Assembly: GCA_938002835.1 (NCBI GenBank)
Contig: CALKZS010000165.1
Span: forward strand, 1 to 53,667
DNA from: an uncultured Dokdonia sp.
Lineage (GTDB): Bacteria > Bacteroidota > Bacteroidia > Flavobacteriales > Flavobacteriaceae
DNA length: 53,667 bases
Direction of reading: 5' to 3'
The notes under the pieces were generated by a model, which did not search any database, was not told the origin of the DNA, and worked only from the letters and a program-made list of their open reading frames with translations. A program made the position numbers and the translations under genes. How positions within the stretch are numbered: position 1 is the first letter of the stretch; each line of letters begins with the position of its first letter. This document shows positions 3,225-50,087 of this stretch, in pieces.

Positions 3225-4169
3225 TTATTTTAAACCCCTACCTTCTTTCTTTAACTTATTTTGGGATTCATATTGCTTTACTAACTTGTCTAATATCCCA
3301 TTAATAAAGATGCTACTCTTAGGAGTAGAGTATTCTTTTGAAATCTCAAGATACTCATTTATAGTTACCTTAACAGGTATTGTAGGGCATTTTAAAAACT
3401 CACATAAAGCTAGTTTTATAAGTATCATATCTACATTTGCGATACGCTCTTTATCCCAATTAGGTGTGTTTTTTGTAATCTCATTTGTTAAAAAATCATT
3501 GTTTGCGAGTGTTTTCTTTAACAATTCTGATCCAAAAACTTCATCATCTTCATTTTTATATAAAGAAGGAAGTAACATTTGTTCTGGAGATGCAGGCTTT
3601 ATTTTACCTAATCTCTTAAGTACTACCATATTTACCATAGGTATATCATCTACCCAAGTAAGACGATTATCTTCTATATAATCATACAACTTATCATTAG
3701 GCGCAATAACCTCAGTATAAATAGCTATTAAAAACTTTCTGTCAATCTTAAAGTCTGTTTCGGTAGCACTCATATAGCTTTCATACAGTGATGAAGCTAC
3801 TATTTCATTATATATAATCTGTACGTACTCATCATTAGTACTCCAGTTTTTAAGCTTACGTTTACTTAACTCATCACGTAGTAAAGTATTATCTGTAAGT
3901 TTTACTAGTACTTGATTATTGATAAAACGAAGGTTTGGATTTTTTTCTTCTTCGGTGGCTAGTATCTTTTTTGAGGTTTTTTCTTGTTCTGCTTTCGCGA
4001 AAGCGTGAACCTCCACCATTAAATCTAACATTAAGAGATAAAGATTATACATCTGGTGCATACTCTCTAACATAAATTTATTTTCTAATTCAAGATCAAA
4101 CTGCTCTTTACTTCCTAGAGCATAGATGGTTTGCATCACCTTGACACGAATATGGCGCCTGTTTAACAT
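3225..4169 (-). CDS. nusB: Transcription antitermination factor NusB, long Bacteroidetes form
   Basis: The protein begins MLNRRHIRVKVMQTIYAL, typical for NusB. The C-terminal all-helical NusB fold is seen in NWDKERIANVDMILIKLALCEFL and TINEYLEISKEYSTPKSSIFINGILDKL. NusB binds boxA RNA with NusE (S10) in antitermination on rRNA operons. At 314 residues it is about twice the proteobacterial length because of an inserted helical N-terminal half, as usual in this phylum. Residues HAFAKAE are encoded by a copy of the CTTTCGCGAAAG palindrome (3992-4003). A promoter-like TATTTTTG lies upstream. Confidence 0.93.
   Translation of the reverse strand: MLNRRHIRVKVMQTIYALGSKEQFDLELENKFMLESMHQMYNLYLLMLDLMVEVHAFAKAEQEKTSKKILATEEEKNPNLRFINNQVLVKLTDNTLLRDELSKRKLKNWSTNDEYVQIIYNEIVASSLYESYMSATETDFKIDRKFLIAIYTEVIAPNDKLYDYIEDNRLTWVDDIPMVNMVVLKRLGKIKPASPEQMLLPSLYKNEDDEVFGSELLKKTLANNDFLTNEITKNTPNWDKERIANVDMILIKLALCEFLKCPTIPVKVTINEYLEISKEYSTPKSSIFINGILDKLVKQYESQNKLKKEGRGLK
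3991..4004. repeat. CTTTCGCGAAAG palindrome, copy inside nusB
   Basis: Perfect 14-nt palindrome GCTTTCGCGAAAGC, read in nusB as AFAKA. Confidence 0.85.
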
Positions 4170-4230
4170 AACAACAAAGAACTTTTATAATGGTTTTAAA
4201 AATGAAAAATTCATCTTTATAAAATTGCAG

Positions 4231-4238
4231 CAAAAATA
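4231..4238 (-). promoter_or_regulatory. Candidate -7 element for nusB
   Basis: On the minus strand this reads TATTTTTG, a full match to the Bacteroidetes -7 consensus TAnnTTTG, about 62 nt before the nusB start. No clear TTG element is seen at -33. Confidence 0.35.
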
Positions 4239-4349
4239 CAGCATTTTATATACTAATCTGAATTTTTATTTAATATGTTGTGAGATAATAGTTCGTATAG
4301 CTTTTAAAAAATTGCGACCTTAGCAGCTTACTATAATACAAACTCTTTT

Positions 4350-6107
4350 ATGGGTGCATTGCAATCCCTTAATATTTACTTTTTAAGATACAAATGGCGA
4401 CTTATAATAGGCTTTTTTATTGTGATTGCGGCCAGAGCATTTGCAGTATTTAATGTAGACATTGTAGGAGATATTGTAAATGATGTCGAATTATATATCA
4501 AGTCACAAGACACAGATCTAGGAGCTTTAAAAAATAGTATGGTAATCAAGCTTGGGTTATTACTTGGAGCTACCCTACTGTCTGGTTTTTTTACATTTTT
4601 AATGCGCCAAATGATTATTGTTGTTTCTCGCTTTATAGAAGCAGATCTTAAAGATGACATCTATGCACAGTATCAACGTTTAAGTCTTGGCTTTTACAAA
4701 AACAACCGTACGGGTGATCTTATGAATCGCATCTCTGAAGATGTAAGTAAAGTCCGAATGTATGTAGGTCCTGCAATTATGTATCTTTTGCAAGCACTTG
4801 TTTTATTTGCAGTTGTAATTCCTTATATGGTTAAAATGGCACCATCACTGGCTTTATATACACTTATTCCTTTACCTGTATTATCTATTGCTATTTATAA
4901 GTTGAGCCGTACTATACACGTGCGAAGTACTATTGTGCAAGAATATCTATCTAAGCTCACAACATATACTCAAGAGTCTTTTAGTGGTATTTCTGTTATA
5001 AAAGCATATACCTTAGAAGCAAATACATATCAAGAATTTGCCCAACTTAGTGATGATAGTAAAGAAAAAAACTTACATCTTGTTAAAGCACAAGCCTTTT
5101 TCTTTCCGCTTATGATAGGACTTATTGGTACAAGTAATCTCATTGTAATCCTAGTAGGTGGTCAACAATATATCAATGGTACCATTACAGATCTTGGAAC
5201 ACTCGTAGAATTTATAATGTATGTAAATATGCTCACCTGGCCTGTAGCTACAGTAGGATGGGTTACTTCTATTATAAAAGCGGCAGAAGCCTCTCAAATA
5301 CGTATCAATGAGTTTTTAAAAATAACTCCAGAGATTAAGAATACAGTTACTAGCACCTCAAATGTTCTAGGAAATATCGCTTTTAAAAATGTATCATTTA
5401 CATATAAAGATACAGGTATAGAAGCTTTACAAAACATCACTTTTGAAGTAAAATCTGGAGAAACTCTTGCTATTATAGGCCCTACAGGTTCTGGCAAGTC
5501 TACCATTTTAGAACTTATAGGAAGATTATATGATATCTCAGATGGAGTTATACAAATAGATAACACATCGATTACAGAGGTACATTTAGATAATTTACGT
5601 TCTGAAATAGGCTATGTCCCTCAAGACGCATTTTTATTTTCTGACACTATTAGAGAAAATATCAAATTTGGAAATACGACTGCTAGTGATGAAGATATAA
5701 TCACCTTTGCAAAGGCTGCAGCCGTACACAATAATATTGCAAGTTTTAAAGAAGGATACGGTACTATTTTAGGAGAAAGAGGTATTACACTATCTGGTGG
5801 TCAAAAACAGCGTGTCTCGATAGCTAGAGCTCTTATTGGTACACCAAAAATATTATTGTTAGATGATTGCCTTAGTGCTGTAGATACCGAAACAGAAGAA
5901 AAAATTCTTAATAATCTTGAACACTTTACTAAAGGTACGACCACTATTTTAGTAAGTCATCGAATATCATCTGCAAAAAATGCAACCAAAATTCTTATTA
6001 TTGAAAATGGTAAAATATCACAGCAAGGCACTCATAATCAACTTATAGAAACTAAAGGGTACTATAGAGATTTATATTTAAAACAACTTGATGAAAAAGA
6101 AATGTAA
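4350..6107 (+). CDS. ABC transporter, fused permease and ATPase
   Basis: This is a 585-residue half-transporter of the exporter type, expected to work as a homo- or heterodimer in the inner membrane. Residues 1 to about 320 form the six-helix transmembrane domain. The nucleotide-binding domain follows, with Walker A GPTGSGKST (about 377-385), signature LSGGQKQR (about 481), Walker B ILLLDDCLSAVD (about 500-510) and the H-loop SHR (about 537). Walker B ends in DD rather than DE, so the usual catalytic glutamate is replaced by Asp, which may lower or alter ATP hydrolysis. MsbA-like lipid or multidrug export is plausible, but the substrate cannot be read from the sequence. It is divergent from nusB. 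Confidence 0.92.
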   Translation: MGALQSLNIYFLRYKWRLIIGFFIVIAARAFAVFNVDIVGDIVNDVELYIKSQDTDLGALKNSMVIKLGLLLGATLLSGFFTFLMRQMIIVVSRFIEADLKDDIYAQYQRLSLGFYKNNRTGDLMNRISEDVSKVRMYVGPAIMYLLQALVLFAVVIPYMVKMAPSLALYTLIPLPVLSIAIYKLSRTIHVRSTIVQEYLSKLTTYTQESFSGISVIKAYTLEANTYQEFAQLSDDSKEKNLHLVKAQAFFFPLMIGLIGTSNLIVILVGGQQYINGTITDLGTLVEFIMYVNMLTWPVATVGWVTSIIKAAEASQIRINEFLKITPEIKNTVTSTSNVLGNIAFKNVSFTYKDTGIEALQNITFEVKSGETLAIIGPTGSGKSTILELIGRLYDISDGVIQIDNTSITEVHLDNLRSEIGYVPQDAFLFSDTIRENIKFGNTTASDEDIITFAKAAAVHNNIASFKEGYGTILGERGITLSGGQKQRVSIARALIGTPKILLLDDCLSAVDTETEEKILNNLEHFTKGTTTILVSHRISSAKNATKILIIENGKISQQGTHNQLIETKGYYRDLYLKQLDEKEM

Positions 6108-6185
6108 AAAAAAACTGGGGCGATGCTCTTTTTTTTATCATTTTTGAAGAATCAATAATTAAACACTAACTATAAGCCTAGCAAT

Positions 6186-6557
6186 ATGAGTGATTACGAT
6201 GGACGTGACAATGAAGAGATTTTCTCAAAAGTTTTAAGAGCAGGAAGACGTACTTATTTTTTTGATGTAAGATCAACAAAAGCAGGAGATTACTACCTTA
6301 CTATCACAGAAAGTAAGAAGTTTACAAATGATGATGGTTCTTTTCACTTTAAGAAACATAAAATTTATTTATATAAAGAAGATTTTGCAGGATTTAGTGC
6401 TAACCTAGAAGAAATGACTTCATACATCTTAAAAGAAAAAGGAGAAGAAGTAATCTCTGATCGTCATCAAAACGATTATTCAAGAGAAACACAAGATACA
6501 GCAACTACTTCTTCAGATGCAGATAAATTTACAGACGTAAGCTTTGATGATATATAA
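6186..6557 (+). CDS. DUF3276 / PUR-alpha-like nucleic-acid-binding protein
   Basis: The 123-residue protein matches the bacterial PUR family: EIFSKVLRAGRRTYFFDVRST, GDYYLTITESKK and HKIYLYKEDFAGF. The family binds single-stranded DNA or RNA through a PUR repeat that forms a Whirly-like fold. The C-terminal third is acidic and low in complexity. It is probably monocistronic, with a strong hairpin terminator directly after it. Confidence 0.88.
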   Translation: MSDYDGRDNEEIFSKVLRAGRRTYFFDVRSTKAGDYYLTITESKKFTNDDGSFHFKKHKIYLYKEDFAGFSANLEEMTSYILKEKGEEVISDRHQNDYSRETQDTATTSSDADKFTDVSFDDI

Positions 6558-6577
6558 ACATCAGACACAATAAAATG

Positions 6578-6609
6578 AAAAAGCCATTTCAGATTGAAGT
6601 GGCTTTTTT
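6578..6609 (+). terminator. Terminator after the PUR-like gene
   Basis: AAAAAGCCATTTC pairs with GAAGTGGCTTTTT with one wobble and an AGATT loop, then a T-run. Because the convergent lipoprotein gene ends at 6616, it may serve both directions. Confidence 0.8.
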
Positions 6610-6615
6610 ATTTTA

Positions 6616-7746
6616 CTAATTCTTAAAAATTACTTCATCGGGTCTAATATCTTCTGTAAATAATGTTTGCAAGACTTCTCCTTGTAGAGACAAGAATACC
6701 ACCATACCTTTAGATTCATTATTCTCTTGAAAGGTTCCTAACGCTATATAAACGTTATTATCAAGATCAATGACAGAGTTAGATACAAAAAATCCTAGTC
6801 CTGTTTCATCAAAGATACTATTGAAAAGAACACTTCGATCATATAGTACAATCTCATCTGTTGTAAAATCATAGATATTAGATACTTCCCCTAAAGCATC
6901 TTTAAAAACCATCCTTTCTGCATCAAACTGAGCGTCATTAAAACCACTGCTTATAACAAATCGTTGAGGAAACTCATTATTATTAAATCTTACGGTAAGT
7001 GTTCTAAGATCTAATGCATCATACATAAAAGAGCCTGTGTCAAAATCAAATAAGTACATTTCTTCTCTAAAATCATCATACAAAAATGCTTCATAGCTAT
7101 CTACATCTAATGTTCCTAGTCTATCTCCCGTCCTTGTATCATTTATATATAATACCTCTCTTTCTGTAAAAATATCTGTAGCCTTAGCAAAGCTGTAATT
7201 TCCTTTTGCAAAAATATTAGATTGTACGGGCGAAATATCTGCATCACCTATAAACACTTCATTAGAAGTTTGTGTGCTTCTTTTAAATGTCTCCAAATAA
7301 ATATCGCAACACGAAGTACTACTGTCAAGATAATATGTAAGTATAGCATCTCCTACATTTGTTGTATAAGTACCTCCTGGAGGATTATTAGGTGTAAAAA
7401 AAGAAGGTTCGCTATCTATTGTTCTGGTTGAAACATTATAAAAAAGATATTCTTCTACTGGGAAACCAGAAGTTATTGCCACTTCACTACCTACGATGTT
7501 TCTCAAGAACCCTATCTCAAAACCTAACTCTTCTTGTAAATTGATTCTAGTGCTAGTCTCATAATTTTCGTCCCAATCTAATACAACTCCTTGTTCTCCA
7601 GTAGTTAGATCTGTTCCTAGAATTGCAATATTAGGTAATGTAGATACTGCTTGTGGAGTCTCTGCTTGATCATCATCATTACTACAGCTTATTATAACAG
7701 CAATAGTAATGACTCCCATAAAAGTTGTTAAGAACCTCATAGTCAT
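6616..7746 (-). CDS. Lipoprotein of unknown function, 376 aa
   Basis: The chosen start (MTMRFLTTF...) gives a clean signal peptide with lipobox ISC; a start further upstream at 7782 would overlap the preceding gene and place charged residues before the signal. The mature protein begins with an Asp-rich stretch (SNDDDQ), usual for surface-exposed lipoproteins here. Repeated short strands with Gly/Asp turns (DLTTGEQGVVLDWDE, DTRTGDRLGTLDV, DFDTGSFMYDALD) suggest a beta-propeller-like fold. No family was recognised with certainty. It lies just behind the exported RidA-like gene, 19 nt apart, so they may be co-transcribed. Confidence 0.8.
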   Translation of the reverse strand: MTMRFLTTFMGVITIAVIISCSNDDDQAETPQAVSTLPNIAILGTDLTTGEQGVVLDWDENYETSTRINLQEELGFEIGFLRNIVGSEVAITSGFPVEEYLFYNVSTRTIDSEPSFFTPNNPPGGTYTTNVGDAILTYYLDSSTSCCDIYLETFKRSTQTSNEVFIGDADISPVQSNIFAKGNYSFAKATDIFTEREVLYINDTRTGDRLGTLDVDSYEAFLYDDFREEMYLFDFDTGSFMYDALDLRTLTVRFNNNEFPQRFVISSGFNDAQFDAERMVFKDALGEVSNIYDFTTDEIVLYDRSVLFNSIFDETGLGFFVSNSVIDLDNNVYIALGTFQENNESKGMVVFLSLQGEVLQTLFTEDIRPDEVIFKN

Positions 7747-7765
7747 TTTTCTTTTCAAGATACCA

Positions 7766-8254
7766 TTAATTCTTGACAGCAACTACTTCTATTTCAATTT
7801 TTGCTCCTACCGCGAGTGCTTCTGCAGCAAATGTGGTACGAGCTGGTTTCTGAGGAAAATACGTTGTATATACTTCATTAAAGGCTTTAAAGTCTTCTAT
7901 ATTGTCAAGTACAACCATCGCTTTTACAACCTGTGTCATTTTTAAATCGTGATGAGCAAGAACAGCTTTTATATTTTCTAACGTTTGTATCGTTTGTTCT
8001 TTAACTCCTCCTTCAACTAGCGTTCTGGTAGTATGATCCATTCCTATCTGACCTGATAAAAAATACATATTACCTACTTGAACTACATCAGAAAAAGGTG
8101 CCATTTGTTTCTTAGGTTCGTGAGAAGGATGAAAAATAGGTTTTACATTCTCCTCTATTGCTGGAGATTGAGCTGGTACTTGAATGTTTTTTTCTTTAGG
8201 TTGGCATCCTAAAATACAGAAGCAAATTGCTAGATAAAAAAAGTAAGGTTTCAT
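7766..8254 (-). CDS. RidA-family protein, exported lipoprotein form
   Basis: The N-terminus is a signal peptide with lipobox (ILGC, Cys at about 17), followed by a 35-residue linker and a complete Rid domain: FSDVVQVGNMYFLSGQIGMD, then VVKAMVVLDNIEDFKAFNEVY and PARTTFAAEALAVGAKIEIEVVA. The conserved Arg of RidA deaminases is present (about residue 139). RidA hydrolyses reactive enamine/imine intermediates in the cytoplasm; a lipid-anchored version would act outside it, on unknown substrates. The domain is intact, so loss of function is not indicated. Confidence 0.9.
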   Translation of the reverse strand: MKPYFFYLAICFCILGCQPKEKNIQVPAQSPAIEENVKPIFHPSHEPKKQMAPFSDVVQVGNMYFLSGQIGMDHTTRTLVEGGVKEQTIQTLENIKAVLAHHDLKMTQVVKAMVVLDNIEDFKAFNEVYTTYFPQKPARTTFAAEALAVGAKIEIEVVAVKN

Positions 8255-8341
8255 AATAATTAATTTTTAATACTAAATGTACGAGTAAAATCGCTACACT
8301 TTTTTAAGGATTGCGTATTTTTATTTTTTTAATATACTACT

Positions 8342-8363
8342 TTACGCTTTCGCGAAAGCGTAA
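8342..8363. repeat. CTTTCGCGAAAG palindrome, 22-nt intergenic copy
   Basis: Perfect 22-nt palindrome TTACGCTTTCGCGAAAGCGTAA. It ends 22 nt before the start codon of the DUF853 gene and lies in the divergent gap with the RidA-like gene. It is one of the longest copies in the window. Confidence 0.9.
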
Positions 8364-8385
8364 CCCACATTAATACCCTTCCAAG

Positions 8386-9924
8386 ATGGAAAAAAAACAA
8401 GAATTTCTAGACTTTATAAATACCGGAAATACCTTTAAAGGTGATTTTATTACAATGGGTGCAGCAATGCTAGATGGTGAAACCATTACAAATGCACACG
8501 TAAAAATACCTCTCAAAACTCTTAATAGACACGGCCTCATTGCTGGAGCTACTGGTACTGGTAAAACTAAAACATTACAAGTCATTGCAGAAAACCTCTC
8601 AGATAAAGGAATTCCTGTATTACTTATGGATATGAAGGGAGATCTTTCTGGTATTGCTAAGGCAAGTCCTGGTCATTCCAAAATAGATGAACGTCACGAG
8701 AAAATAGGTGTTCCCTTTGAAGCAAAAGATTTTCCTGTAGAACTTCTTACTTTATCAGAACAAAATGGGGTACGATTGAGAGCAACGGTTAGTGAGTTTG
8801 GGCCTGTACTATTCTCTAGAATCTTAGATGCTACAGTAGCTCAATCTGGTATTATCTCTATTTTATTTAAATACAGTGATGATAACAAATTACCATTGCT
8901 TGATCTTAAAGACTTCAAAAAGATCTTACAATATGCTACCAAAGAAGGAAAAGATGAAATTACAGAAGAATATGGGCGTATTTCCCCAGCATCTGCAGGA
9001 TCTATACTACGTAAAGTAGTTGAACTAGAACAGCAAGGAGCAGATATCTTTTTTGGAGAAAAGTCTTTTGATACAGAAGACTTAACTCGTAAAACAAATG
9101 ATGATCGCGGTGTCATTAATGTAATACGTCTTACCGATATTCAAGATAGGCCTAAACTATTCTCTACGTTTATGTTGAGTTTACTTGCAGAAATATATTC
9201 TACATTTCCAGAACAAGGAGACAGTGGAAAGCCAGAACTTGTAATCTTTATTGATGAAGCACACCTTATCTTTAAAGAAGCTTCAAAAGCATTGCACAAT
9301 CAGATAGAAAGTATTGTAAAATTAATACGTTCTAAAGGCGTAGGAATTTATTTTGTAACTCAAAACCCTACAGATATTCCTGAAGGAGTTCTAAGTCAAT
9401 TAGGGCTTAAGATACAACACGCATTACGTGCATTTACAGCAAAAGATAGAAAAGCAATAAAGCTTACTGCAGAAAATTATCCTGATTCTCCCTATTATGA
9501 TACTAAAAGTGTTCTTACTTCATTAGGAATAGGAGAAGCACTAGTCTCTGCTCTTGACGAAAAAGGACGTCCTACTCCACTTGCAGCAACAATGTTACGA
9601 GCTCCTATGTCACGTATGGATGTATTAACAGATAAAGAGTTACAAGCAATTAATGACCGTTCTGAGTTAGTAGAGAAATATAATGAAGTAATAGATAGAG
9701 AAAGTGCTTATGAACTTCTTCAAGGAAAAATAGAAAAAGCAAACGAAACCGAAGCAAAAGAAAAAGCCAAAACTGAACGTGCTAAGGCTGAAAAAGCTAG
9801 TACAACAAAGAAAAAAAGTGCCAGCAGCACACAAAGTGTTGGATCAAAAGCTCTCATAAAAGTTCTTACAAGTGCTACTGTAATTAGAGGTGTGTTTGGA
9901 ATTCTTGGAAAAATGTTAAAATAA
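8386..9924 (+). CDS. HerA-like ATPase, DUF853 family
   Basis: The 512-residue protein is a P-loop ATPase of the HerA/FtsK superfamily, DUF853 (YjgR-like). Walker A is GATGTGKT (about residues 53-61), followed by LLMDMKGDLSG. Walker B is LVIFIDEAHLIF and the sensor segment is GVGIYFVTQNPTDIPEGVLSQLG. Members are thought to be DNA-translocating or remodelling motors, but the cellular role is not established. The C-terminal region contains a Lys/Glu/Ala-rich coiled segment (about 445-480) and a final hydrophobic stretch. It starts a four-gene run on the plus strand. Confidence 0.9.
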   Translation: MEKKQEFLDFINTGNTFKGDFITMGAAMLDGETITNAHVKIPLKTLNRHGLIAGATGTGKTKTLQVIAENLSDKGIPVLLMDMKGDLSGIAKASPGHSKIDERHEKIGVPFEAKDFPVELLTLSEQNGVRLRATVSEFGPVLFSRILDATVAQSGIISILFKYSDDNKLPLLDLKDFKKILQYATKEGKDEITEEYGRISPASAGSILRKVVELEQQGADIFFGEKSFDTEDLTRKTNDDRGVINVIRLTDIQDRPKLFSTFMLSLLAEIYSTFPEQGDSGKPELVIFIDEAHLIFKEASKALHNQIESIVKLIRSKGVGIYFVTQNPTDIPEGVLSQLGLKIQHALRAFTAKDRKAIKLTAENYPDSPYYDTKSVLTSLGIGEALVSALDEKGRPTPLAATMLRAPMSRMDVLTDKELQAINDRSELVEKYNEVIDRESAYELLQGKIEKANETEAKEKAKTERAKAEKASTTKKKSASSTQSVGSKALIKVLTSATVIRGVFGILGKMLK

Positions 9925-9933
9925 TAACTACTA

Positions 9934-10476
9934 ATGAAAAAAACGATATTAAGTCTCTGCATTCTCGCATTAGTGAGTTGCTCAAAAAAGGAAGATTTTT
10001 CAATAACAAACACATCTATAGGTCCACTATCTTCAGAAAGTGTAGTAACAGAACTCAAAACACTCTTTATAAATGATAGCCTAGTAGATCAAACATTAGA
10101 TACAGAGTTTACCGTCCCTAAAGGAACGGTAACCGTATATGAAAAAGGAGGTAAAAAATTATTACTACTTACTCCAAAAAAAGAAGGGAGTGATGCCACT
10201 ATAGGGCAAATACAAGTTTTTGATAACAGATACACCACTCCTGAAGGAATTCATTTAGGAAGTACTTTTAAAGATATTGCAGATACATATACAATAAGTC
10301 GTGTTGAAAATTTATTTACAACCATTGTAGTGTTTGTAGAAGAAAGTGATGTATTTTTTAGCATCGATAAAAAAAATCTCCCCGGAGAATTAAGATTTGA
10401 CTCAGATGTAAAAGTAGAACTAACTCAAATACCCGATGAAGCACCTATTAAGTATCTTCAAATAATATGGGAATAA
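9934..10476 (+). CDS. Lipoprotein of unknown function, 180 aa
   Basis: A short signal peptide ends in lipobox VSC. The body is rich in Val, Thr and acidic residues, and strands such as GKKLLLLTPKK and GQIQVFDNRY suggest an all-beta protein. No known family was recognised. The phrase GIHLGSTFKDIADTYTISRVE resembles the pattern of proteins with an internal 'start of a conformational switch' loop, but this is speculative. The last 10 nt overlap the start of the cupin gene, so translation is probably coupled. Confidence 0.8.
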   Translation: MKKTILSLCILALVSCSKKEDFSITNTSIGPLSSESVVTELKTLFINDSLVDQTLDTEFTVPKGTVTVYEKGGKKLLLLTPKKEGSDATIGQIQVFDNRYTTPEGIHLGSTFKDIADTYTISRVENLFTTIVVFVEESDVFFSIDKKNLPGELRFDSDVKVELTQIPDEAPIKYLQIIWE

Positions 10477-10835
10477 AAAAGTATACGATACAAGACAATC
10501 CTTTTGTGGTTCCCACTGATGATGGAAAGGTAATAGAAGAACATTGGGGTATTGCTACAGATAGCAACAAAGAGATAAGCATTGCTTATATGGTAGCTCC
10601 TCCAGGATGGAGTGAGCCTTTCCAAACTCCCGAATTTGATGAATATACATATATCATAAAAGGAAAGAAACAATTTATCATAGACGGAGAAACGATTATA
10701 CTGGAAAAAGGTCAAAGCATTAAAATAGAAAGAAACACAAGAGTGCAGTATAGTAATCCATTTACAGAACCTTGTGATTATATGGCTATTTGCACACCTG
10801 CATTTTCATCAGATATCGTTCACAGAGAAAACTAA
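10467..10835 (+). CDS. Cupin-domain protein
   Basis: The 122-residue protein is a single small cupin barrel. Motif 1 is degenerate (PGWSEPFQTPEFDEYTYIIKGKKQFIIDG) and motif 2 reads LEKGQSIKIERNTRVQYSNP. The usual His ligands of motif 1 are replaced (P-E-F-D-E-Y), so metal binding is uncertain. Cupins of this size include sugar-binding and dioxygenase-like proteins; the substrate is unknown. It overlaps the preceding lipoprotein gene and is followed by the hydrolase gene after 5 nt. Confidence 0.85.
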   Translation: MGIKKYTIQDNPFVVPTDDGKVIEEHWGIATDSNKEISIAYMVAPPGWSEPFQTPEFDEYTYIIKGKKQFIIDGETIILEKGQSIKIERNTRVQYSNPFTEPCDYMAICTPAFSSDIVHREN

Positions 10836-10840
10836 CACTA

Positions 10841-11680
10841 TTGAAAAAAGTATTTCAAAAATTGCTTCCTAAATTATTAGGAACAAAACTTAATATCACG
10901 AGTCTTTTTAATTCTAAAAAAGCAGCATTACAAGCATTTATCATATTCTGTTCTCCAAGACGTGGTAAAGTGCTATCCGAACAAGAAGCCTACCTCAACG
11001 ATGCAAAACTAGATGTATTACAGCACGAAAATAGAACCCTACAAAGTTATAATTGGAAAGGTACTGGTAAAAAAGTATTGCTCATACACGGTTGGGAAAG
11101 CAACACTCATAGATGGCATTTACTCATTACAGAGTTACGCCAAAAAGGGTATGATATATATGCCATTGACGCTCCTGCTCACGGTAACTCTTCTGGTAAG
11201 ATATTAAATGTCCCTAGATATGCCGCTGCTATTGAGACTGCGGTAAAAGCATATGCCCCAGAGATGATTATTGGACACTCTATTGGTGCACTAGCTACTA
11301 TTTTTCATCAGCACACTTACAACTCATCAAAAAGTTTAAAAAAATTAGTGCTTTTAGGTGCTGCATCAGAACTTTATGATATTATGCAAGACTATAAAGG
11401 AATCTTAGGCCTTAATCATCGTGTAATGAATGGCTTAGAAAAATTTATTATTGATCGTTTTGGATATAATTTTAAGGATTTTTCTGGTGCTTCTTTTGCA
11501 AAGTCTATTAAACTACCTACACTTTTAATACACGATAAATTAGATAAAATTACTCCTGTAGAAGCTTCTAGATCCATACATAAAAATATTCCTACAAGTA
11601 CTTATATAGAGACAGAGGGCTTTGGGCATTCTTTATATCAAGATGAAGTGAGAGCAGCCGTATTAAAGTTTATTGAGTGA
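10841..11680 (+). CDS. Alpha/beta hydrolase
   Basis: I place the start at a TTG codon (10841), giving MKKVFQKLLPKLL..., because it follows the cupin stop by 5 nt; an ATG at 10790 lies inside the cupin gene. The fold is clear: oxyanion region LLIHGWESNTHRW, nucleophile elbow GHSIG, the acid in LLIHDKLDKITP and the His in EGFGHSLYQDE. It is a cytoplasmic serine hydrolase of unknown substrate (esterase or lipase type). A truncated CTTTCGCGAAA palindrome lies 2 nt after the stop codon. Confidence 0.88.
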   Translation: MKKVFQKLLPKLLGTKLNITSLFNSKKAALQAFIIFCSPRRGKVLSEQEAYLNDAKLDVLQHENRTLQSYNWKGTGKKVLLIHGWESNTHRWHLLITELRQKGYDIYAIDAPAHGNSSGKILNVPRYAAAIETAVKAYAPEMIIGHSIGALATIFHQHTYNSSKSLKKLVLLGAASELYDIMQDYKGILGLNHRVMNGLEKFIIDRFGYNFKDFSGASFAKSIKLPTLLIHDKLDKITPVEASRSIHKNIPTSTYIETEGFGHSLYQDEVRAAVLKFIE

Positions 11681-11683
11681 TGT

Positions 11684-11700
11684 TACGCTTTCGCGAAATA
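11684..11700. repeat. Truncated palindrome variant TACGCTTTCGCGAAATA
   Basis: The left arm and centre match the palindrome family, but the right arm ends in GAAATA. The identical 17-mer occurs inside aroE at 31859-31875. Confidence 0.75.
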
Positions 11701-11742
11701 TTATAGCCCTCATAATAAACTACTTATATAACCGCTACTACT

Positions 11743-13487: not shown

Positions 13488-13488
13488 T

Positions 13489-13526
13489 CCTTTGTTATGT
13501 CATAAACCACAAAGGTAGGTTTTTTT
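13489..13526 (+). terminator. Probable terminator after the 279-aa membrane protein gene
   Basis: CCTTTGT (13489-13495) pairs with ACAAAGG (13509-13515) over a 13-nt loop, and a T7 run follows at 13520-13526. Confidence 0.5.
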
Positions 13527-13679
13527 AGAAGCTAAAGCGAAATGCACTAAAGTGTATAGTTTTAACTATTTTTAAGACCAATAAAGATATCGAAGTGATA
13601 CAAATAGCCTGGTATCCTTCAAAGTAGAAGAATACCAATACTACTAGATATAAACAAACGCTTTCTTGAGGCTTATAAT

Positions 13680-13693
13680 GCTTTCGCGAAAGC
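13680..13693. repeat. CTTTCGCGAAAG palindrome, intergenic copy
   Basis: GCTTTCGCGAAAGC ends 5 nt before the 3' end (13699) of the DUF3857/transglutaminase gene. Confidence 0.85.
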
Positions 13694-19026: not shown

Positions 19027-19680
19027 ATGACTCCTACTTCTCAAGGAAAACATTGTTCTACTTGTGAAAAGGATGTGATTGATTTTACATCATTAACAAA
19101 AAGAGAATTGCACTCGCACATCACTAGCGACAAGAGCATTTGTGGTAGGTTTAGACAAGATCAACTTAACACATCACTATATTTTGAACCTACTAAAGCT
19201 AGACAGTGGAAAAAATATGCAGCCTCTCTCCTATTCTCCGCAGCACTTTTTATAATTAATAAAAGTGATGCACAAACGTCTTCAAAAACACCTCATAATA
19301 GACTTCCTCATACAATTCAAACAACAAAAAAATATGATAGTTTAGGAATTGGTTCGCTTTCGCGAAAGCAAGATACTACCACCCAAGAGTTACATTGTGT
19401 TAAAGGAATAGTCTCAGGAAATTACAGTGTTTTATCACAAGTACATATCTATGTTTCAGGAACACAACGTTCTACAGTAACAAAATTAGATGGAGAGTAT
19501 GAAATATCTATAGCAAAAGGAGATACATTAACCTTTCTTCATTCAGGTTTTAAACCTAAAAAAGTTGTGTATAAAGATCAAAAATCAATCTCTGTTAATC
19601 TTGATCCGATAAAAATTATAGAAGATGGCTTTACAATGGGTAAAATTATAATTATAGAAGAAGACTCTAAAAAACAATAA
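19027..19680 (+). CDS. Carboxypeptidase-regulatory-like membrane protein with zinc-finger-like N-terminus
   Basis: The ATG at 19027 lies inside a conserved domain. The preceding in-frame codons from 18955 (IKLYRIKTHLGITISENCQENWQE) match the usual N-terminus of this flavobacterial family, which continues into MTPTSQGKHCSTCEKDVIDFT. No ATG, GTG or TTG exists upstream in frame before a stop at 18943; only ATA and ATT codons are available. The protein then has a membrane segment (AASLLFSAALFII) and a C-terminal carboxypeptidase-regulatory-like beta domain (about residues 122-190, VKGIVSGNYSVLSQVHIYVSG). A palindrome copy encodes SLSRK. The gene may be expressed from an unusual start or be damaged. 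Confidence 0.7.
   Translation: MTPTSQGKHCSTCEKDVIDFTSLTKRELHSHITSDKSICGRFRQDQLNTSLYFEPTKARQWKKYAASLLFSAALFIINKSDAQTSSKTPHNRLPHTIQTTKKYDSLGIGSLSRKQDTTTQELHCVKGIVSGNYSVLSQVHIYVSGTQRSTVTKLDGEYEISIAKGDTLTFLHSGFKPKKVVYKDQKSISVNLDPIKIIEDGFTMGKIIIIEEDSKKQ
19356..19369. repeat. CTTTCGCGAAAG palindrome, coding copy
   Basis: GCTTTCGCGAAAGC inside the carboxypeptidase-regulatory-like gene, read as SLSRK. Confidence 0.85.
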
Positions 19681-23017: not shown

Positions 23018-25501
23018 CTAAAAACTCACCCCAATTAAAAAAGCATTATCGCTTCCTCCTATCGCTCCTTGGCTATGCACATAATCAAGGCGTAAAAAAC
23101 GATATTTACCAAAGCCTACATTATCTAACCCTATAGAAAACTCTCTGTATAAACTCGCATCTTGCGTGCTCAAAATATGAGCCCCAGCAATAAGATTAAA
23201 ATTGAGCTTATTAATTAATGGTATTTTTCCTAATATCCAACCTCTAAAATTATGCTCTGCGTGACCTTCAAAATAGGCCTCATTAGTACTGCGTTCATAA
23301 TATGGTAAATTATAAAACCTATTACTATTTTCGGGGTCAAAAATTATGGTTTGATTTACGTTAAAATGCTGCCTGTCTACAAAACTTATATCTTTTGCAG
23401 TTCCTAAAAAAGTTCCTACGCGAGCGTCGTACTTTAAACGTCCTTTATTGCCCACATTAAACTCTTGCTGCACAATTAATCGCAATTGGTCAAAATCATA
23501 ATCGGCTACAGAAGCTCCAAATCCTTTTTCGTATACCAGCGTTAGACTTGGGTATTTATCTACATTTACATTAAACTTCCCATCTGGATAACTATAATAT
23601 TTCTGACCAAAATTAATACGGCCACTCACTATTAATTTTCCAATACTATGTGACTCAAAAGCAGTACTTCCTTCATCAAAAGGAGCTAGCGGGTTATTAC
23701 TAGTAAACTCTTTATCATCTTTCGGAAAAAACGTTTGATCTGTAGTATTAAATACAGGATTACGCTCTTCATAAGCTACTACAGCATCAAGCCTAAACCC
23801 ATTTATTACCTCTTGACCATAATATGCCTCTGCAAATACTTTTTCATAATACTTAGCAAAGTTTTCTTCCAGTCCTAAAGTATAAATGCTGTTTACAAGT
23901 GGTTTTATGGGGGCTGTATTATTAAACTGTAAGATGTCTACACCTCCAGAAACTTGCAATGATGCTCTATTGGTTCGGTTAAAACGTTTTGAAAACCCTC
24001 CTGTATATCTTAGTCTATCTTCTGAGAAACCGTAGTCCGCTTTCGCGAAAGCGGAAAAACTACTCGTAAAATTTTCGTCACTCCACGTGGTATATCTAGC
24101 TGTTATTGAACCGTTCCAACCCTGTACAGTATTAAAACTTATATCTTGCAATGGCCCTGAAACCGAAAAACTCTTTTTGTTATACGTATCACGATAACTA
24201 TATCCAAAAAATGGGTCTAAGATTTTAAACTTATTACCTCGTGCATCTATAGAATCTAGGTGTTTTTTAGACTTACGAATCACTTGAAGGCTATCCTTTT
24301 TAGTATAATCTTCTACCTCAACTTGAGTGAGTGGTACTGGTCTTACTTTTTGCCAAAAAGTGCTATCTTTCTTATTTGCATCTTCTTGAAAAGAGAGAAT
24401 CTCATTTGAAAATGATTTTTTTGTAAAATCTGGATTAAAATCATATTCTGAATATCCTGCTACAAAACTCCCATCTCCTTTTACTCCAAAAAAGCTAAAA
24501 CTAAAATCGATTACCTGAGAGCGTTTTACCCACTTATCTATACTTTTTTCATATTTAAAGTTTTGTTTAAAGTTGAGACTTTCTATAATGGGCACTTGAA
24601 TAGCAGTACCATTTGTATTGAGATCTACACCATACAATTGCCAGTCGTCTTCTACAATATATATTATTCCAGAAAAAATGCGATCGTTCTCACGCCTTGG
24701 AATCACCTTTACTTTATTAATGAGTTTACCTTCTTCATAAAAAGTACCTTCTAGTTTGTACTTATAATATACATAGGCATTTGAAGCAATGGGAGATATG
24801 ATTTGAGCATTAAGATCTAAAGTGTTTTCATAGAAAGAAAAATTTGCATCTACTGCCGTGTTAAAACTAAACCCATTATCATTTCCAGAAATTTTACTGG
24901 CTACAATCTCTTCACTAAAATTATCTGGACGTTGGTATGCTATATTAGAAATGGTCTCACTTAGGTATACAATCCCTGTTCGGGTTGAATCTAGTCCTCC
25001 TCCTAGATCTCCTATTTCTTGTCCTAATATTTTTTCTGGTGCATCTTCTACTTTCCAAACTCCTTTAGAATAAAACTTTGCTTTATACTCACTAAGACGT
25101 TCTAGATTTTTCTTTCTAGCTGCGATAGTTGCCTTTATAATTCTATCTGCTGGATTTACGCCTGCCTGCACAATAACTTCATCTAACGATGTTGTAGAGG
25201 CTACTAATTGTGCATCTAATAATACTTTAAGATCATCGATTACTATTTTTTGAGTCTTAGTAGTATATCCTAAATATTTAAACACAATGGTTACTTCTGT
25301 ATCCAAGTCTGCTTTTTCTAAAGGCAAATTATAAACACCATCTCCATTTGTTGTTGTCCCTCTATTTGAACCTTCTATATAGATATTTACAAACGGCAAT
25401 GCAACATCTGACTCATCTGTAACAAGACCATATAATTGAGCCTTGGTCGAAAAAGTGATAAAAAAAAGACCTATAAAAAGGCAACATTTTGATAAAGACA
25501 T
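23018..25501 (-). CDS. DUF5686 outer-membrane protein with carboxypeptidase-regulatory domain
   Basis: The 827-residue protein has a signal peptide (STKAQLYG), a CarboxypepD_reg-like domain (about 22-105: GLVTDESDVALPFVNIYIEGSNRGTTTNGDGVYNLPL), and then the DUF5686 region (IIKATIAARKKNLERLSEYKAKFYSKG) with a predicted C-terminal beta-barrel ending in an aromatic residue (AFLIGVSF). Such proteins are TonB-receptor-like but lack a plug domain; their function is unknown. A 20-nt palindrome of the CTTTCGCGAAAG family encodes SAFAKAD inside the barrel. Confidence 0.9.
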   Translation of the reverse strand: MSLSKCCLFIGLFFITFSTKAQLYGLVTDESDVALPFVNIYIEGSNRGTTTNGDGVYNLPLEKADLDTEVTIVFKYLGYTTKTQKIVIDDLKVLLDAQLVASTTSLDEVIVQAGVNPADRIIKATIAARKKNLERLSEYKAKFYSKGVWKVEDAPEKILGQEIGDLGGGLDSTRTGIVYLSETISNIAYQRPDNFSEEIVASKISGNDNGFSFNTAVDANFSFYENTLDLNAQIISPIASNAYVYYKYKLEGTFYEEGKLINKVKVIPRRENDRIFSGIIYIVEDDWQLYGVDLNTNGTAIQVPIIESLNFKQNFKYEKSIDKWVKRSQVIDFSFSFFGVKGDGSFVAGYSEYDFNPDFTKKSFSNEILSFQEDANKKDSTFWQKVRPVPLTQVEVEDYTKKDSLQVIRKSKKHLDSIDARGNKFKILDPFFGYSYRDTYNKKSFSVSGPLQDISFNTVQGWNGSITARYTTWSDENFTSSFSAFAKADYGFSEDRLRYTGGFSKRFNRTNRASLQVSGGVDILQFNNTAPIKPLVNSIYTLGLEENFAKYYEKVFAEAYYGQEVINGFRLDAVVAYEERNPVFNTTDQTFFPKDDKEFTSNNPLAPFDEGSTAFESHSIGKLIVSGRINFGQKYYSYPDGKFNVNVDKYPSLTLVYEKGFGASVADYDFDQLRLIVQQEFNVGNKGRLKYDARVGTFLGTAKDISFVDRQHFNVNQTIIFDPENSNRFYNLPYYERSTNEAYFEGHAEHNFRGWILGKIPLINKLNFNLIAGAHILSTQDASLYREFSIGLDNVGFGKYRFLRLDYVHSQGAIGGSDNAFLIGVSF
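24036..24055. repeat. CTTTCGCGAAAG palindrome, 20-nt coding copy
   Basis: Perfect 20-nt palindrome TCCGCTTTCGCGAAAGCGGA inside the DUF5686 gene, read as SAFAKAD. Confidence 0.9.
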
Positions 25502-27568: not shown

Positions 27569-28360
27569 ATGACTACGACACGCCTATTTTACGTTTTTTC
27601 TCTCATATTAATATTACAGAGTTGTAAAGAACAATCGACAGCTCCTGCAACTCAAGAAAAAGAACAATCAACAGTTAATGCAACTCTTACAGCTCAAGAG
27701 ATTGTAGACAAAGCTATTGCTGCCGCTGGCGGTTCTATCATAGAGAATGCTACTATTCATTTTAAATTTCGTGATTATTATTATAATGCAACACGTGCTA
27801 ATGGTAGTACTACTTTAGATCGTTGTACAGATCCAGAATGTTTATTACAACAAGATAAAATAAAAGAAAATGGGGAGTTTGTACGCTTTCGCGAAAGCGC
27901 TCCTGTCCCAGTTCCAGATAGTATGGCTCCTAGATATTCAAACAGTATAAACTCTGTACATTATTTTTCTGTTTTACCATACGGTTTAAATGATCCTGCT
28001 GTACATAAAGAGCTTATAAGTCCAACTGAAATTAATGGAAAACCTTACTATCGTATTAAAGTAACATTTTCTGAAGAAGGCGGCGGTGAAGATTTTGAAG
28101 ACGAATATATGTATTGGATTGATAAAGAAAGTTATCAGGTAGATTATATTGCATATAACTATCAAGTAGATGAAGGTGGCACTCGCTTTAGAGAGGCCTA
28201 TAATGAACGAATTGTAAATGGTGTGCGCTTTGTAGATTATCGCAATTATAAACCAGAAGAGCAATTTCCGTCTCTTACAGACTTAGGCAGTTTATTTGAA
28301 AATAAAAAGCTTAAACTTTTATCACAGATTGAGCTTGAAAATATTTCAGTGATTAAATAA
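27569..28360 (+). CDS. DUF6503-like lipoprotein
   Basis: The signal peptide ends in lipobox LQSC. The mature domain (AQEIVDKAIAAAGG, then FKFRDYYYNATR, NGKPYYRIKVTF and YMYWIDKESYQVDYIAYNY) matches the outer-membrane-lipoprotein-sorting-like DUF6503 family of Bacteroidetes, with a fold related to LolA/LolB. A palindrome copy (27884-27899) encodes VRFRES, in a different frame from the other coding copies. It is convergent with the phosphatase gene. Confidence 0.85.
   Translation: MTTTRLFYVFSLILILQSCKEQSTAPATQEKEQSTVNATLTAQEIVDKAIAAAGGSIIENATIHFKFRDYYYNATRANGSTTLDRCTDPECLLQQDKIKENGEFVRFRESAPVPVPDSMAPRYSNSINSVHYFSVLPYGLNDPAVHKELISPTEINGKPYYRIKVTFSEEGGGEDFEDEYMYWIDKESYQVDYIAYNYQVDEGGTRFREAYNERIVNGVRFVDYRNYKPEEQFPSLTDLGSLFENKKLKLLSQIELENISVIK
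27884..27899. repeat. CTTTCGCGAAAG palindrome, 16-nt coding copy
   Basis: CGCTTTCGCGAAAGCG inside the DUF6503-like gene, read as RFRES. Confidence 0.88.
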
Positions 28361-31577: not shown

Positions 31578-32366
31578 TTACTCATTCCAGATAGTCCAAG
31601 AAGCCTCTGCTTGTAGCTCTAACATTCTGAAACCATTTATGATAGTAGCTCCTTTTGCTGCTGCAAGTTTTAAAAATTGCGTTTCTGTAGGGTTATATAT
31701 CAAGTCAAAAGCTACGTGAGATACATCTATAAAATCATAGGGTACATCTGGTGAAGCATCTACATCTGGAAATGTTCCTAAAGGGGTTGTATTTACTATA
31801 AATGTTTGTGCGTCAATAATCGTTTTATCTAAATCGTCATAGGTTAGATTTTTTTCTGTACGCTTTCGCGAAATAAATTGACACTCCACTCCCAGTTGCT
31901 CTAATGCATACTGTACTCCTTTTGAAGCTCCTCCAGTTCCTAAAATAATAGCTTTATGACCTCTGGGCTCATAGTCTTGAGTCCCATAACCTAAAAATAA
32001 TGAATCTTTAAAGTGTTCTAATAATGTATCTCTAAAACCTACAAAATCTGTATTCATTCCTGTTAAGGTGCCATCGGCTTCTCTTTTTATGGTATTTACT
32101 GCTCCTATTTTTAAAGCGTGTTCGTCTAATCTATCTAAAAATGGTATGATCGCTTCTTTATAAGGAATTGTGACATTATACCCTTTCACGAAAGTGTCAT
32201 TAAGATATTCTTGTAAACCTGATGCATTTGGAACATCAAAATTTTCATAAGTAGCAGCAATGCCTTCTTTTTTAAATTTACTTTTAAAATACCCTCTTGA
32301 AAATGAGTATCCTATGTCTTTACCAAAAAGCCCGTATTTATTCAATTTTTCTTGTTTTTTCTCCAT
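31578..32366 (-). CDS. aroE: Shikimate dehydrogenase
   Basis: This enzyme reduces 3-dehydroshikimate with NADPH in the shikimate pathway. Visible are the substrate-binding region SFSRGYFKSKF, the catalytic Lys in GYNVTIPYKEAI, MNTDFVGF with the Asn/Asp pair, the glycine-rich nucleotide loop LGTGGASKGV, NTTPLGTFP, and the C-terminal GFRMLELQAEASW. Its length of 262 is normal. The start overlaps the preceding DUF368 gene by 29 nt. Two palindrome relatives lie inside (31859-31875, and a one-mismatch copy at 32183-32194, read as TFVKG). Confidence 0.94.
   Translation of the reverse strand: MEKKQEKLNKYGLFGKDIGYSFSRGYFKSKFKKEGIAATYENFDVPNASGLQEYLNDTFVKGYNVTIPYKEAIIPFLDRLDEHALKIGAVNTIKREADGTLTGMNTDFVGFRDTLLEHFKDSLFLGYGTQDYEPRGHKAIILGTGGASKGVQYALEQLGVECQFISRKRTEKNLTYDDLDKTIIDAQTFIVNTTPLGTFPDVDASPDVPYDFIDVSHVAFDLIYNPTETQFLKLAAAKGATIINGFRMLELQAEASWTIWNE
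31859..31875. repeat. Truncated palindrome variant inside aroE
   Basis: TACGCTTTCGCGAAATA, identical to 11684-11700. On the aroE strand it is read as ISRKR. Confidence 0.75.
32183..32194. repeat. Degenerate palindrome copy inside aroE
   Basis: CTTTCACGAAAG differs by one base from the core CTTTCGCGAAAG. Confidence 0.45.
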
Positions 32367-40248: not shown

Positions 40249-40270
40249 ATACGCTTTCGCGAAAGCGTAT
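40249..40270. repeat. CTTTCGCGAAAG palindrome, 22-nt intergenic copy
   Basis: Perfect palindrome ATACGCTTTCGCGAAAGCGTAT. Its last base is the last base of the stop codon of the 136-aa membrane protein gene, and it lies 36 nt upstream of ettA. Confidence 0.9.
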
Positions 40271-40702: not shown

Positions 40703-42004
40703 CTACGATATTCCTTCCAAAACATTGCGCATTGCTCTAGCTTTGAGGTAACACTCTGCATACTCTTTTTCAGGAATAGAACCTGCTGTGATAGCACTTC
40801 CAACTGTGTAAGAAATGTACTCTTTTTCTGTGTTATACAAAATACTTCGTATCACTACATTAAAATCAAAATCTCCTGTAGGTGTAAAATATCCAATAGC
40901 GCCACTGTAAAGACCTCTTTTAGAAACTTCTAGCGCTTCTATAATTTGCATTGCTTTTACTTTGGGAGCTCCTGTCATACTCCCCATAGGGAAGGTGGAT
41001 CGTATTACATCTACTGGGGAAATCCCTACCCCTATTTCTGAACTCACTGTAGAGATCATTTGATGCACTTGTTTAAACGGATAAACACGACACAATTCTT
41101 CAACTTTTACAGATCCTTTTTTTGCTGTACGAGACAGGTCATTGCGCACTAGGTCTACAATCATTATATTTTCTGATCGCTCTTTGGGGTCTTGTGATAA
41201 CGCTTTCGCGAAAGCAGAATCTTTCTCCTCTCCTTCTCCACGTCTGGCGGTTCCCTTTATGGGTTGACTAATGATCTTATCGCCTTGCTTTCTAATATAT
41301 CTTTCTGGGCTCGCACAAAGTGCATATTGATGCTCTAACTTTAAAAAAGTTGCAAATGGCGGTGCACTAATCGCATTGAGACGAATATAAGTATCTAAAG
41401 GATTTATAGTGCCTGTTGCATAAAACTCTTGACACATATTTGCTTCATAAATATTACCTCTTGCAATATGATCTAGCATTTCTCCTACTCTTTTAAGATA
41501 TGAGTCTTTATCAATCTTGTTTTCTATGTTAAGATCTGAGTGGTTATTTTTTGATGTGTGTGTGTGTGCTGTATAGATCTCATTAATATCTTCTTCTATC
41601 TCATCATCTACCATAGAGAGGTAATGTATTTCTAGCGTATTATTTTTTATGAGAAATAGTTTTTTAGGTTGAAAAAAGTAAAGATCTGCAAAGTGAAGTT
41701 TGTCTGTATTTTTTGAAGTGAGACGTTCTGTATCATTTTTAAGATCATAACTTAAGTATCCAAAAATCCAATCCTTTGTTGTATTTTGATATTCTTCAAG
41801 TTGATCAAAAGCTCCTTGAAAATCAGTTTTTAAACTTGTAAAGGCATCGACAGCAAGAATCGCATCATATTCAGGATAGTTCTGATGGTTATAGTCATTA
41901 CTATCTAACCACACGATCTCTTCAAACTGCTGTGCCCATACTAATAATTGCTCTTTAAAAGTGTCGAGATGGGAAATAGATATACTTTTTGAAGTTCGAT
42001 TCAT
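40703..42004 (-). CDS. pabB: Aminodeoxychorismate synthase component I
   Basis: I use the ATG at 42004 (MNRTSKSISIS). The chorismate-binding domain is clear: ARGNIYEANMCQEFY, SPERYIRKQGDKIISQPIKGTARRG, ENIMIVDLVRNDLSRTAKKGSVKVEELC, STFPMGSMTGAPKVKAM and YSGAIGYF. The PIKGT motif with Lys distinguishes PabB from anthranilate synthase TrpE (PIAGT). It makes aminodeoxychorismate for folate synthesis with a glutaminase partner not present here. A palindrome copy encodes SAFAKALS. Confidence 0.93.
   Translation of the reverse strand: MNRTSKSISISHLDTFKEQLLVWAQQFEEIVWLDSNDYNHQNYPEYDAILAVDAFTSLKTDFQGAFDQLEEYQNTTKDWIFGYLSYDLKNDTERLTSKNTDKLHFADLYFFQPKKLFLIKNNTLEIHYLSMVDDEIEEDINEIYTAHTHTSKNNHSDLNIENKIDKDSYLKRVGEMLDHIARGNIYEANMCQEFYATGTINPLDTYIRLNAISAPPFATFLKLEHQYALCASPERYIRKQGDKIISQPIKGTARRGEGEEKDSAFAKALSQDPKERSENIMIVDLVRNDLSRTAKKGSVKVEELCRVYPFKQVHQMISTVSSEIGVGISPVDVIRSTFPMGSMTGAPKVKAMQIIEALEVSKRGLYSGAIGYFTPTGDFDFNVVIRSILYNTEKEYISYTVGSAITAGSIPEKEYAECYLKARAMRNVLEGIS
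41202..41215. repeat. CTTTCGCGAAAG palindrome, copy inside pabB
   Basis: GCTTTCGCGAAAGC, read on the pabB strand as AFAKA. Confidence 0.85.
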
Positions 42005-44094: not shown

Positions 44095-44108
44095 GCTTTC
44101 GCGAAAGC
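44095..44108. repeat. CTTTCGCGAAAG palindrome, intergenic copy
   Basis: GCTTTCGCGAAAGC between the secreted-protein gene and the beta-barrel gene. Confidence 0.85.
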
Positions 44109-49833: not shown

Positions 49834-49956
49834 AGTAATTTGTTTAAATTCTTAAATAGTCAAAGAATAGTTATCTGTCTCTTATGAATACTGACAAACT
49901 GATTTTTTTGTAAAAAAAAAGTATAATATTCTATTATGAAGCTTTTACTTATTCTT

Positions 49957-49987
49957 TGGGAAGTAACTATAGTTTTTTGTGAAGTAA
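49957..49987. promoter_or_regulatory. LytTR-like direct repeats upstream of the adhesin gene
   Basis: TGGGAAGTAA (49957-49966) and TGTGAAGTAA (49978-49987) are offset by exactly 21 bp, two helical turns, as expected for LytTR-domain dimers. They lie about 124-154 bp upstream of the start codon. Confidence 0.5.
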
Positions 49988-50073
49988 TCAATTTTAGGTG
50001 TATAAATGCACAGTGTTTTTTGATTAAAATGCTTTAACATATAGTTGTTATACTATTTGTAAAGTATATATGT

Positions 50074-50087
50074 GCTTTCGCGAAAGC
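50074..50087. repeat. CTTTCGCGAAAG palindrome, intergenic copy
   Basis: GCTTTCGCGAAAGC in the region upstream of the adhesin gene. Confidence 0.85.

Follow-up and report, generated by a model that had tools for sequence, protein, structure and literature searches.

Genomes of the genus Dokdonia, one of a few groups of marine flavobacteria to do so, carry a lineage-specific genome word, the perfect palindrome GCTTTCGCGAAAGC, which at its fullest reads TACGCTTTCGCGAAAGCGTA. The starting point is a stretch of 53,667 nucleotides from an uncultured Dokdonia sp. (contig CALKZS010000165.1 of assembly GCA_938002835.1; hereafter the window), in which an earlier note, made from the letters alone, had described a highly iterated palindrome in unrelated genes and in the gaps between them. 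The iteration proves to be genome-wide. The organism's own genome (3.10 Mb in 196 contigs) holds 610 copies of the 14-mer and none of its reversed sequence, the control used for word counts, and the ten copies in the 53.7-kb window are in line with that density. All ten exact 12-mers CTTTCGCGAAAG reported by the note were found at the starts given for them, each as the core of the longer 14-mer. Their rarity by chance is likewise confirmed, although the figures behind it shift: the G+C content is 32.2% rather than about 34%, and instead of roughly 0.002 occurrences the 12-mer is expected 0.0014 times per window at Markov order 0, 0.0010 times at order 2 and 0.0002 times at order 3 (orders 1-3 computed with word copies masked). 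Expected counts and controls together rule out a chance origin. Two outcomes named beforehand as speaking against the idea, a genome frequency near the Markov expectation and copies confined to the window, were looked for and neither occurred. Very probably, the word is a recognition tag for a predicted, specific DNA-binding protein.

All 18 Dokdonia genomes examined carry between 369 and 905 copies of the 14-mer. A genus-level survey of other Flavobacteriaceae genera found it in two of 18 genomes (578 and 6 copies), and none was present in 23 genomes from other families of the order. In a survey of 397 genomes of the family, 317 have none and 80 have at least one; of these, 74 hold 1-19 copies and six are rich, namely two of Dokdonia (610 and 857), three of genus g11 (578, 664 and 609) and one of g210 (408). 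Across the phylum the word occurs in 22 of 395 genomes, with 610 copies in the own genome and 1-6 in each of the other 21; single copies in this survey are at background level, and the reversed control also matches once in 14 genomes. Word density over 22 rich genomes is one copy per 3.6 to 7.8 kb. No 14-mer was seen in 79 named loci of other species or in the three stretches fetched from the word-poor genomes G116, G326 and G091. A blind 10-mer scan of 167 loci ranks the word first for the majority of rich-group loci and for two stretches of a transferred segment described below; in the rich-group loci L328 and L336 other repeats rank above it. The same scan brought unrelated repeated 10-mers, ACTAACGACT and TCTACGTCAA, above threshold in L065 and L070, which hold no 14-mer.

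The rich groups do not fall together in a tree of EttA, where g11 and g210 are separate from Dokdonia and from each other. A clade of all three is not rejected (approximately unbiased (AU) test, p 0.127), and Dokdonia plus g210 gives p 0.055. With EttA and ParB combined, the g210 genome G230 joins Dokdonia (98/93) and g11 lies elsewhere on a long branch; a single clade of the three is again not rejected (p 0.247). No description of the word was found among the top-ranked open-access papers, and its exact 16-mer was not found as a string in open-access papers. A paper on Zunongwangia deals, in an excerpt, with CRISPR. Among such papers that print the inner sequence TTTCGCGAAA, none contains the 14-mer or 12-mer and none concerns flavobacteria, as judged by title and the start of the abstract. 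One phage of a Persicivirga/Nonlabens host, assumed here to be a word-rich genus, has 0 copies in 35.7 kb. Searches against plasmids matched EttA in part only and gave no hit for one stretch of the transferred segment. A viral-contig scan gave four loci with more than one site among the 80 listed.

Copies within genes are judged from aligned sequences to have arisen in place by base substitution and not by insertion. For two genes, the surrounding regions of relatives were retrieved and aligned, with word-rich and word-poor genera both represented. Of 16 Dokdonia NusB sequences 15 have the core, all at one alignment column, against none of five from word-poor genera. The corresponding counts are 15 of 17 and 0 of 4 for a chorismate-binding enzyme, and 11 of 16 and 0 of 5 for an ABC exporter gene. 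Since orthologues with and without the word align without gaps at these three sites, the copies arise by substitution; an inserted element is ruled out, and the note's view that the word is neither a gene family nor an insert is upheld. In a gene that we take to be RuvX/YqgF-like the core is present in all 13 sequences, none of them an outside comparator. Two other in-gene sites adjoin alignment gaps, of which the one at LSRK is independent of the word and the one at FRESG splits subgroups.

In-gene words are read in three frames, as AFAKA, LSRK and FRES. Where two Dokdonia sequences share a residue, they also use the same codon in 1646 of 1713 pairs (96%) at word codons, counted when one of the pair carries the word, as against 89193 of 165891 (54%) elsewhere in the same genes; the pairs are not independent of one another. 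Therefore selection or drive acts on the word at the level of DNA, which agrees with the selection proposed in the note. Copies may also move: in genomes G013 and G001 the chorismate-binding gene has no copy, but one lies 340-360 bp upstream of the gene start, where the others have none, an anecdote and not a test.

About half of all copies lie inside genes. By simple open reading frame (ORF) calls, copies between genes number 25 of 48 in the own genome, 52 of 92 in genome G008 and 18 of 51 in g11, on about 12% of the DNA; under another ORF rule, applied to fetched syntenic loci, they number 42 of 149. In the same three sets, convergent, tandem and divergent gaps show no consistent preference. 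Intergenic copies carry the flank TAC more often than genic ones (0.42 vs 0.11 in the own genome, 0.63 vs 0.24 in G008 and 0.25 vs 0.15 in g11). Of the copies within genes, a disproportionate share (9/23, 14/40 and 15/33, respectively) falls in the opening fifth of the gene.

Along the chromosome, the copies are spaced more regularly than random placement would give, and they tend to keep at least about 1 kb apart. The coefficient of variation (CV) of the gaps is 0.615 against 0.978 for random placement in the first 230 kb of G016, 0.543 against 0.918 in the own genome, 0.626 against 0.875 in G008 and 0.401 against 0.849 in g11, each with 0 of 5000 random sets as even; in g210, with only 10 gaps, evenness is not significant (302/5000). 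Nulls matched to gene layout never reach the observed CV in the own genome, G008 or g11 (0/3000), which rules out evenness as a by-product of gene layout. Around the G008 chromosome, each of twenty sampled 20-kb stretches contains 2-7 copies. Relative to expectation, the density of Dokdonia pairs is 0.17 below 1 kb, 0.62 at 1-1.5 kb and about 1 beyond, except at 2-2.5 and 7-7.5 kb, where it falls to 0.63; close pairs in g11 are depleted out to 2.5 kb. Exceptions are a gap of 199 bp in the own genome and three in G008 (100, 262 and 421 bp); in G016 only 33 bp separate a one-sided copy from a palindromic one. The last genome, taken to be D. donghaensis, also has word-poor gaps of 9-12 kb (L387, L388), one with raised G+C; a Flavo-1 RNA is the one feature identified in them.

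In the window itself, the perfect palindromes around the ten copies are 14 to 22 bp long. TTCGCGAA occurs 12 times, and all 12 occurrences belong to the GCTTTCGCGAAAGC family. Two of the members are one-sided copies lying in an identical 17-mer, TACGCTTTCGCGAAATA, at 11684-11700 and 31859-31875; what is missing from them is the final two bases of the 14-mer, where the note had counted one. A further copy had been proposed at 32183-32194, where the 12-mer CTTTCACGAAAG is indeed present; it is without the GC ends and is not counted as a family member. The copies are as follows, the 14-mer palindromes having no strand:

3991..4004, no strand: GCTTTCGCGAAAGC 14-mer inside nusB, reading AFAKA
8346..8359, no strand: GCTTTCGCGAAAGC 14-mer, intergenic with divergent genes on either side, within a 22-bp perfect palindrome
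11687..11698, plus strand: one-sided copy GCTTTCGCGAAA, intergenic
13680..13693, no strand: GCTTTCGCGAAAGC 14-mer, intergenic with convergent genes on either side
19356..19369, no strand: GCTTTCGCGAAAGC 14-mer inside a gene with a carboxypeptidase-regulatory-like domain, reading LSRKQ
24039..24052, no strand: GCTTTCGCGAAAGC 14-mer inside a DUF5686 gene, reading AFAKA, in a 20-bp palindrome
27885..27898, no strand: GCTTTCGCGAAAGC 14-mer inside a DUF6503 gene, reading RFRES
31862..31873, plus strand: one-sided copy GCTTTCGCGAAA inside a shikimate dehydrogenase-like gene, reading ISRKR
40253..40266, no strand: GCTTTCGCGAAAGC 14-mer, intergenic, in a 22-bp palindrome
41202..41215, no strand: GCTTTCGCGAAAGC 14-mer inside a chorismate-binding enzyme gene (PabB/TrpE-like), reading AFAKA
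44095..44108, no strand: GCTTTCGCGAAAGC 14-mer, intergenic
50074..50087, no strand: GCTTTCGCGAAAGC 14-mer, intergenic

The window also holds a Bacteroidales small signal recognition particle (SRP) RNA at 17634-17740 on the minus strand.

Recognition of the word appears sharp. For exact, one-mismatch and two-mismatch copies of the 14-mer the counts are 48, 5 and 13 in a 233-kb sample of the own genome, and 92, 10 and 33 in a 400-kb sample of G008. In the Dokdonia sets TTTCGCGAAA is always flanked by GC on at least one side, and the same holds for g11 and g210; a single exception occurs in the transferred segment. One-sided copies, numbered genome-wide as the 12-mer count minus twice the 14-mer count, amount to 90 in the own genome (G000), 222 in G008, 132 in G016 and 17 in G027. 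When 34 of those in G008 are aligned (L297-L316), 19 run on as AT, with a tendency to ATGTGA after GCTTTCGCGAAA; the own genome's eight show no such continuation. Only 4 of the 34 lie within 1 kb of a palindromic copy, where 12.6 are expected (0/2000). Because the same avoidance rule holds for them, one-sided copies are probably the functional equals of palindromic ones, and since they keep the same spacing, the one-sided 12-mer GCTTTCGCGAAA is probably the minimal functional unit, offered by the palindrome in both orientations. In a rarer variant, GCTTTTGCAAAAGC, the two halves carry matching changes; the own genome has 28 copies of it (reversed control 1), G001, G011 and G013 have 15-16 each, and two g11 genomes have 21 and 16. 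Counts are 0-6 in the remaining 16 word-rich genomes and 0-2 in 13 word-poor ones, with 0-3 for the reversed control. Four sampled variants (L097:3590, L100:750, L102:19017 and L104:709) lie 1.4-3.6 kb from the nearest word.

Several other roles and partners were examined on the sequence. Restriction avoidance, which the note had entertained, is not supported: outside the word TCGCGA is not depleted, with observed over expected counts of 6/7.2 in the own genome, 26/22.4 in G008 and 33/37.1, 14/14.6 and 22/17.2 in three other sets; the 8-mer occurs too seldom for such a comparison. ACGCGT is found at about half the expected number in L297-L316 (23 vs 51.3) and in the own genome (7 vs 14.6), as against 64 vs 71.5 in other Dokdonia loci, and its scarcity is possibly a separate restriction signature. 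A partner C5 methyltransferase is unsupported, PF00145 being absent from 9 of 15 word-rich genomes in a search that covered the C5 type. Equally unsupported is an extra ParB or Noc paralogue as reader: each of 40 genomes, word-rich and word-poor alike, has one strong HTH_ParB match, and a second, weak match occurs in G010 alone among the 15 word-rich genomes and also in 9 word-poor ones. An intrinsic terminator is rejected because about half of the copies are in genes, convergent gaps are not consistently preferred, and the 19 terminator-like sites in window positions 1-20000, the part scanned, all fall away from the copies. The note had reached the same conclusion from the lack of a loop, a reason that fails, since five copies folded as RNA each close a CGCG loop directly with a stem of 6 to 10 pairs, although shuffled sequence folds at least as well as two of them. 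Since TCGCGA avoidance, a C5 methyltransferase, an extra ParB and a terminator are all unsupported, a specific reader is what is left.

Tentatively, and at somewhat less than an even chance, the word is best read as a putative tag for the cell's own DNA, with a role like that of Haemophilus and Neisseria uptake sequences. One specific receptor would read it and favour fragments bearing the tag, hence own DNA, during natural uptake; tags would be made and mended as such fragments recombine, and a further tag next to an existing one would bring no gain, leading to even spacing. Like the uptake signal sequences (USS) and DNA uptake sequences (DUS) of Pasteurellaceae and Neisseriaceae, the word is lineage-restricted, occurs in hundreds of evenly spaced copies with extended weaker flanks, and is both genic and over-represented between genes without orientation bias. 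It shares with them an over-represented exact form over the whole chromosome and a lack of strand bias (34 copies, G008). An excerpt of PMC1939737 describes uptake sequences as lying in genes yet enriched between them, with no orientation bias, and cites Karlin for even spacing that he himself called too uneven for compaction. In an excerpt of PMC7811141, a relatively even distribution is the expected outcome of uptake drive, and two USS within 100 bp have no detectable added effect. Within the family, as PMC7965970 classifies it, Riemerella columbina prefers its own DNA in transformation competition (excerpt). Also counted in favour are the high copy number in all 18 Dokdonia genomes, the codon identity at word codons, the intergenic bias of the TAC flank, the presence of ComEC and the word-free phage. 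Weighing against an uptake tag, no receptor was identified, no competence test of Dokdonia was found among the open-access papers listed, and ComEC, present in 40 of 40 genomes including the word-poor ones, does not discriminate. The Dokdonia word, known from sequence alone, is also unlike USS and DUS in being a perfect 14-bp palindrome, sparser, and with far fewer one-mismatch copies. Uptake sequences are not perfect palindromes according to an excerpt of PMC1939737, and USS are spaced at roughly 1 kb in that of PMC7811141, the word being several times sparser. Near-misses to exact copies stand at 5:48 in the own genome and 10:92 in G008, as compared with 947 (86 by chance) to 438 in Actinobacillus pleuropneumoniae (PMC1939737, excerpt); this scarcity counts against uptake because a graded drive predicts more one-mismatch copies. 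Together with the dyad, it fits an intracellular dimeric reader better.

A chromosome-organising site, a candidate in the note alongside a site for a repair protein, is a close rival to the uptake tag, doubtful but to be taken seriously, in which a dimeric nucleoid or segregation protein would bind every copy and the spacing of about 4 kb would set loops or bridges. The perfect dyad, the few near-misses, the even spacing, the 2-7 copies in every sampled stretch round one chromosome and the enrichment in G000 of GCTTTTGCAAAAGC, with its matched changes, all suit such a protein. The sites matS, parS and Noc are also exact dyads for a dimeric protein, and the TTTC...GAAA halves of the word recall parS and the Noc site. 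Motifs of this type have far fewer copies than the word, which unlike them is dispersed over the whole chromosome with no extra strong ParB-type protein. No candidate protein was found, the 40 genomes show no sign of an extra ParB/Noc-type protein, and a strictly dimeric site does not predict that one-sided copies keep the spacing rule. In a more specific and rather unlikely form, a putative flavobacterial dimeric protein would use the exact dyad every 4-8 kb as a chromosome ruler, with mutual exclusion inside about 1 kb, shared by few groups and missing from their relatives. It is improbable that the word is instead a by-product without a use, created by a methyltransferase and biased mismatch repair. 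The cyanobacterial HIP1 (GCGATCGC) is a comparable highly iterated palindrome under DNA-level constraint, its function unsettled, and the scarce near-misses and palindromic form would agree; HIP1 is linked to methyltransferases in an excerpt of PMC4390886. The Dokdonia word differs in being longer, sparser and of another sequence and phylum, 9 of 15 carriers lack a C5 methyltransferase, TCGCGA outside words is near expectation, and repair bias alone gives no reason for the depletion of close pairs. More improbable still is a polar recombination or segregation motif of the Chi or KOPS (FtsK-orienting polar sequence) type. Known Chi is shorter than the word. A one-sided core does exist, at a density like that of Chi in E. 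coli (1008 copies in 4.64 Mb; PMC1939737, excerpt), but the word is palindromic, and the 34 one-sided copies, a small sample from one genome, show no replichore or GC-skew bias (9/8 and 7/10), which leads to rejection of such polarity. Hardly credible, lastly, is a dispersed mobile or RNA-level element such as a repetitive extragenic palindrome (REP), a miniature inverted-repeat transposable element (MITE) or a terminator. REP and bacterial interspersed mosaic elements (BIME) are dispersed, hairpin-capable palindromes, as is the word. Unlike them it lies about half in genes and arose by substitution, with gap-free alignment at the three sites that have word-poor comparators, DNA-level conservation in three reading frames, no consistent gap-type preference and no T tail at copies in window 1-20000.

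Beyond the rich groups, the word is also carried by one shared piece of DNA. Stretches with clustered copies were inspected in 10 word-poor genomes, and in seven of them, from seven genera (G118, G127, G141, G254, G376, G029 and G386), the copies sit in a single homologous segment, with identity of about 73-95% across blocks of at least 5 kb and less in some shorter blocks. Nine stretches of it (L317, L318, L319, L320, L321, L322, L323, L327 and L356) hold 26 copies in 180 kb, and a recurrent pair of copies, at a distance of 933 bp, is present in G118, G127, G141, G254 and G200. Ten of its proteins (L321, L317) comprise a resistance-nodulation-division (RND) pump, an outer membrane efflux protein, an AraC-type regulator, a multicopper oxidase, heavy-metal ATPases, a CusB/HlyD-like protein and two others. 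G133 and G216 have only short or weak matches to the segment and G389 has none; second clusters in G254 and G376 (L354, L355) lie outside it. Dokdonia samples give two short matches of about 70%. We infer that this metal-efflux segment came from a word-rich donor.

The word may, on either reading, mark DNA from the rich groups, flagging a metal-efflux segment in seven other genera. Should it prove an uptake tag, it would be, among the open-access papers listed, the first well-supported uptake sequence of the Bacteroidota, in a family with a known preference for own DNA whose basis is not known; the putative uptake words for the phylum in an excerpt of PMC7965970 are only A/T-rich k-mers. If it is a chromosome ruler, it would represent a new organising principle, a spacing system encoded in the sequence itself.

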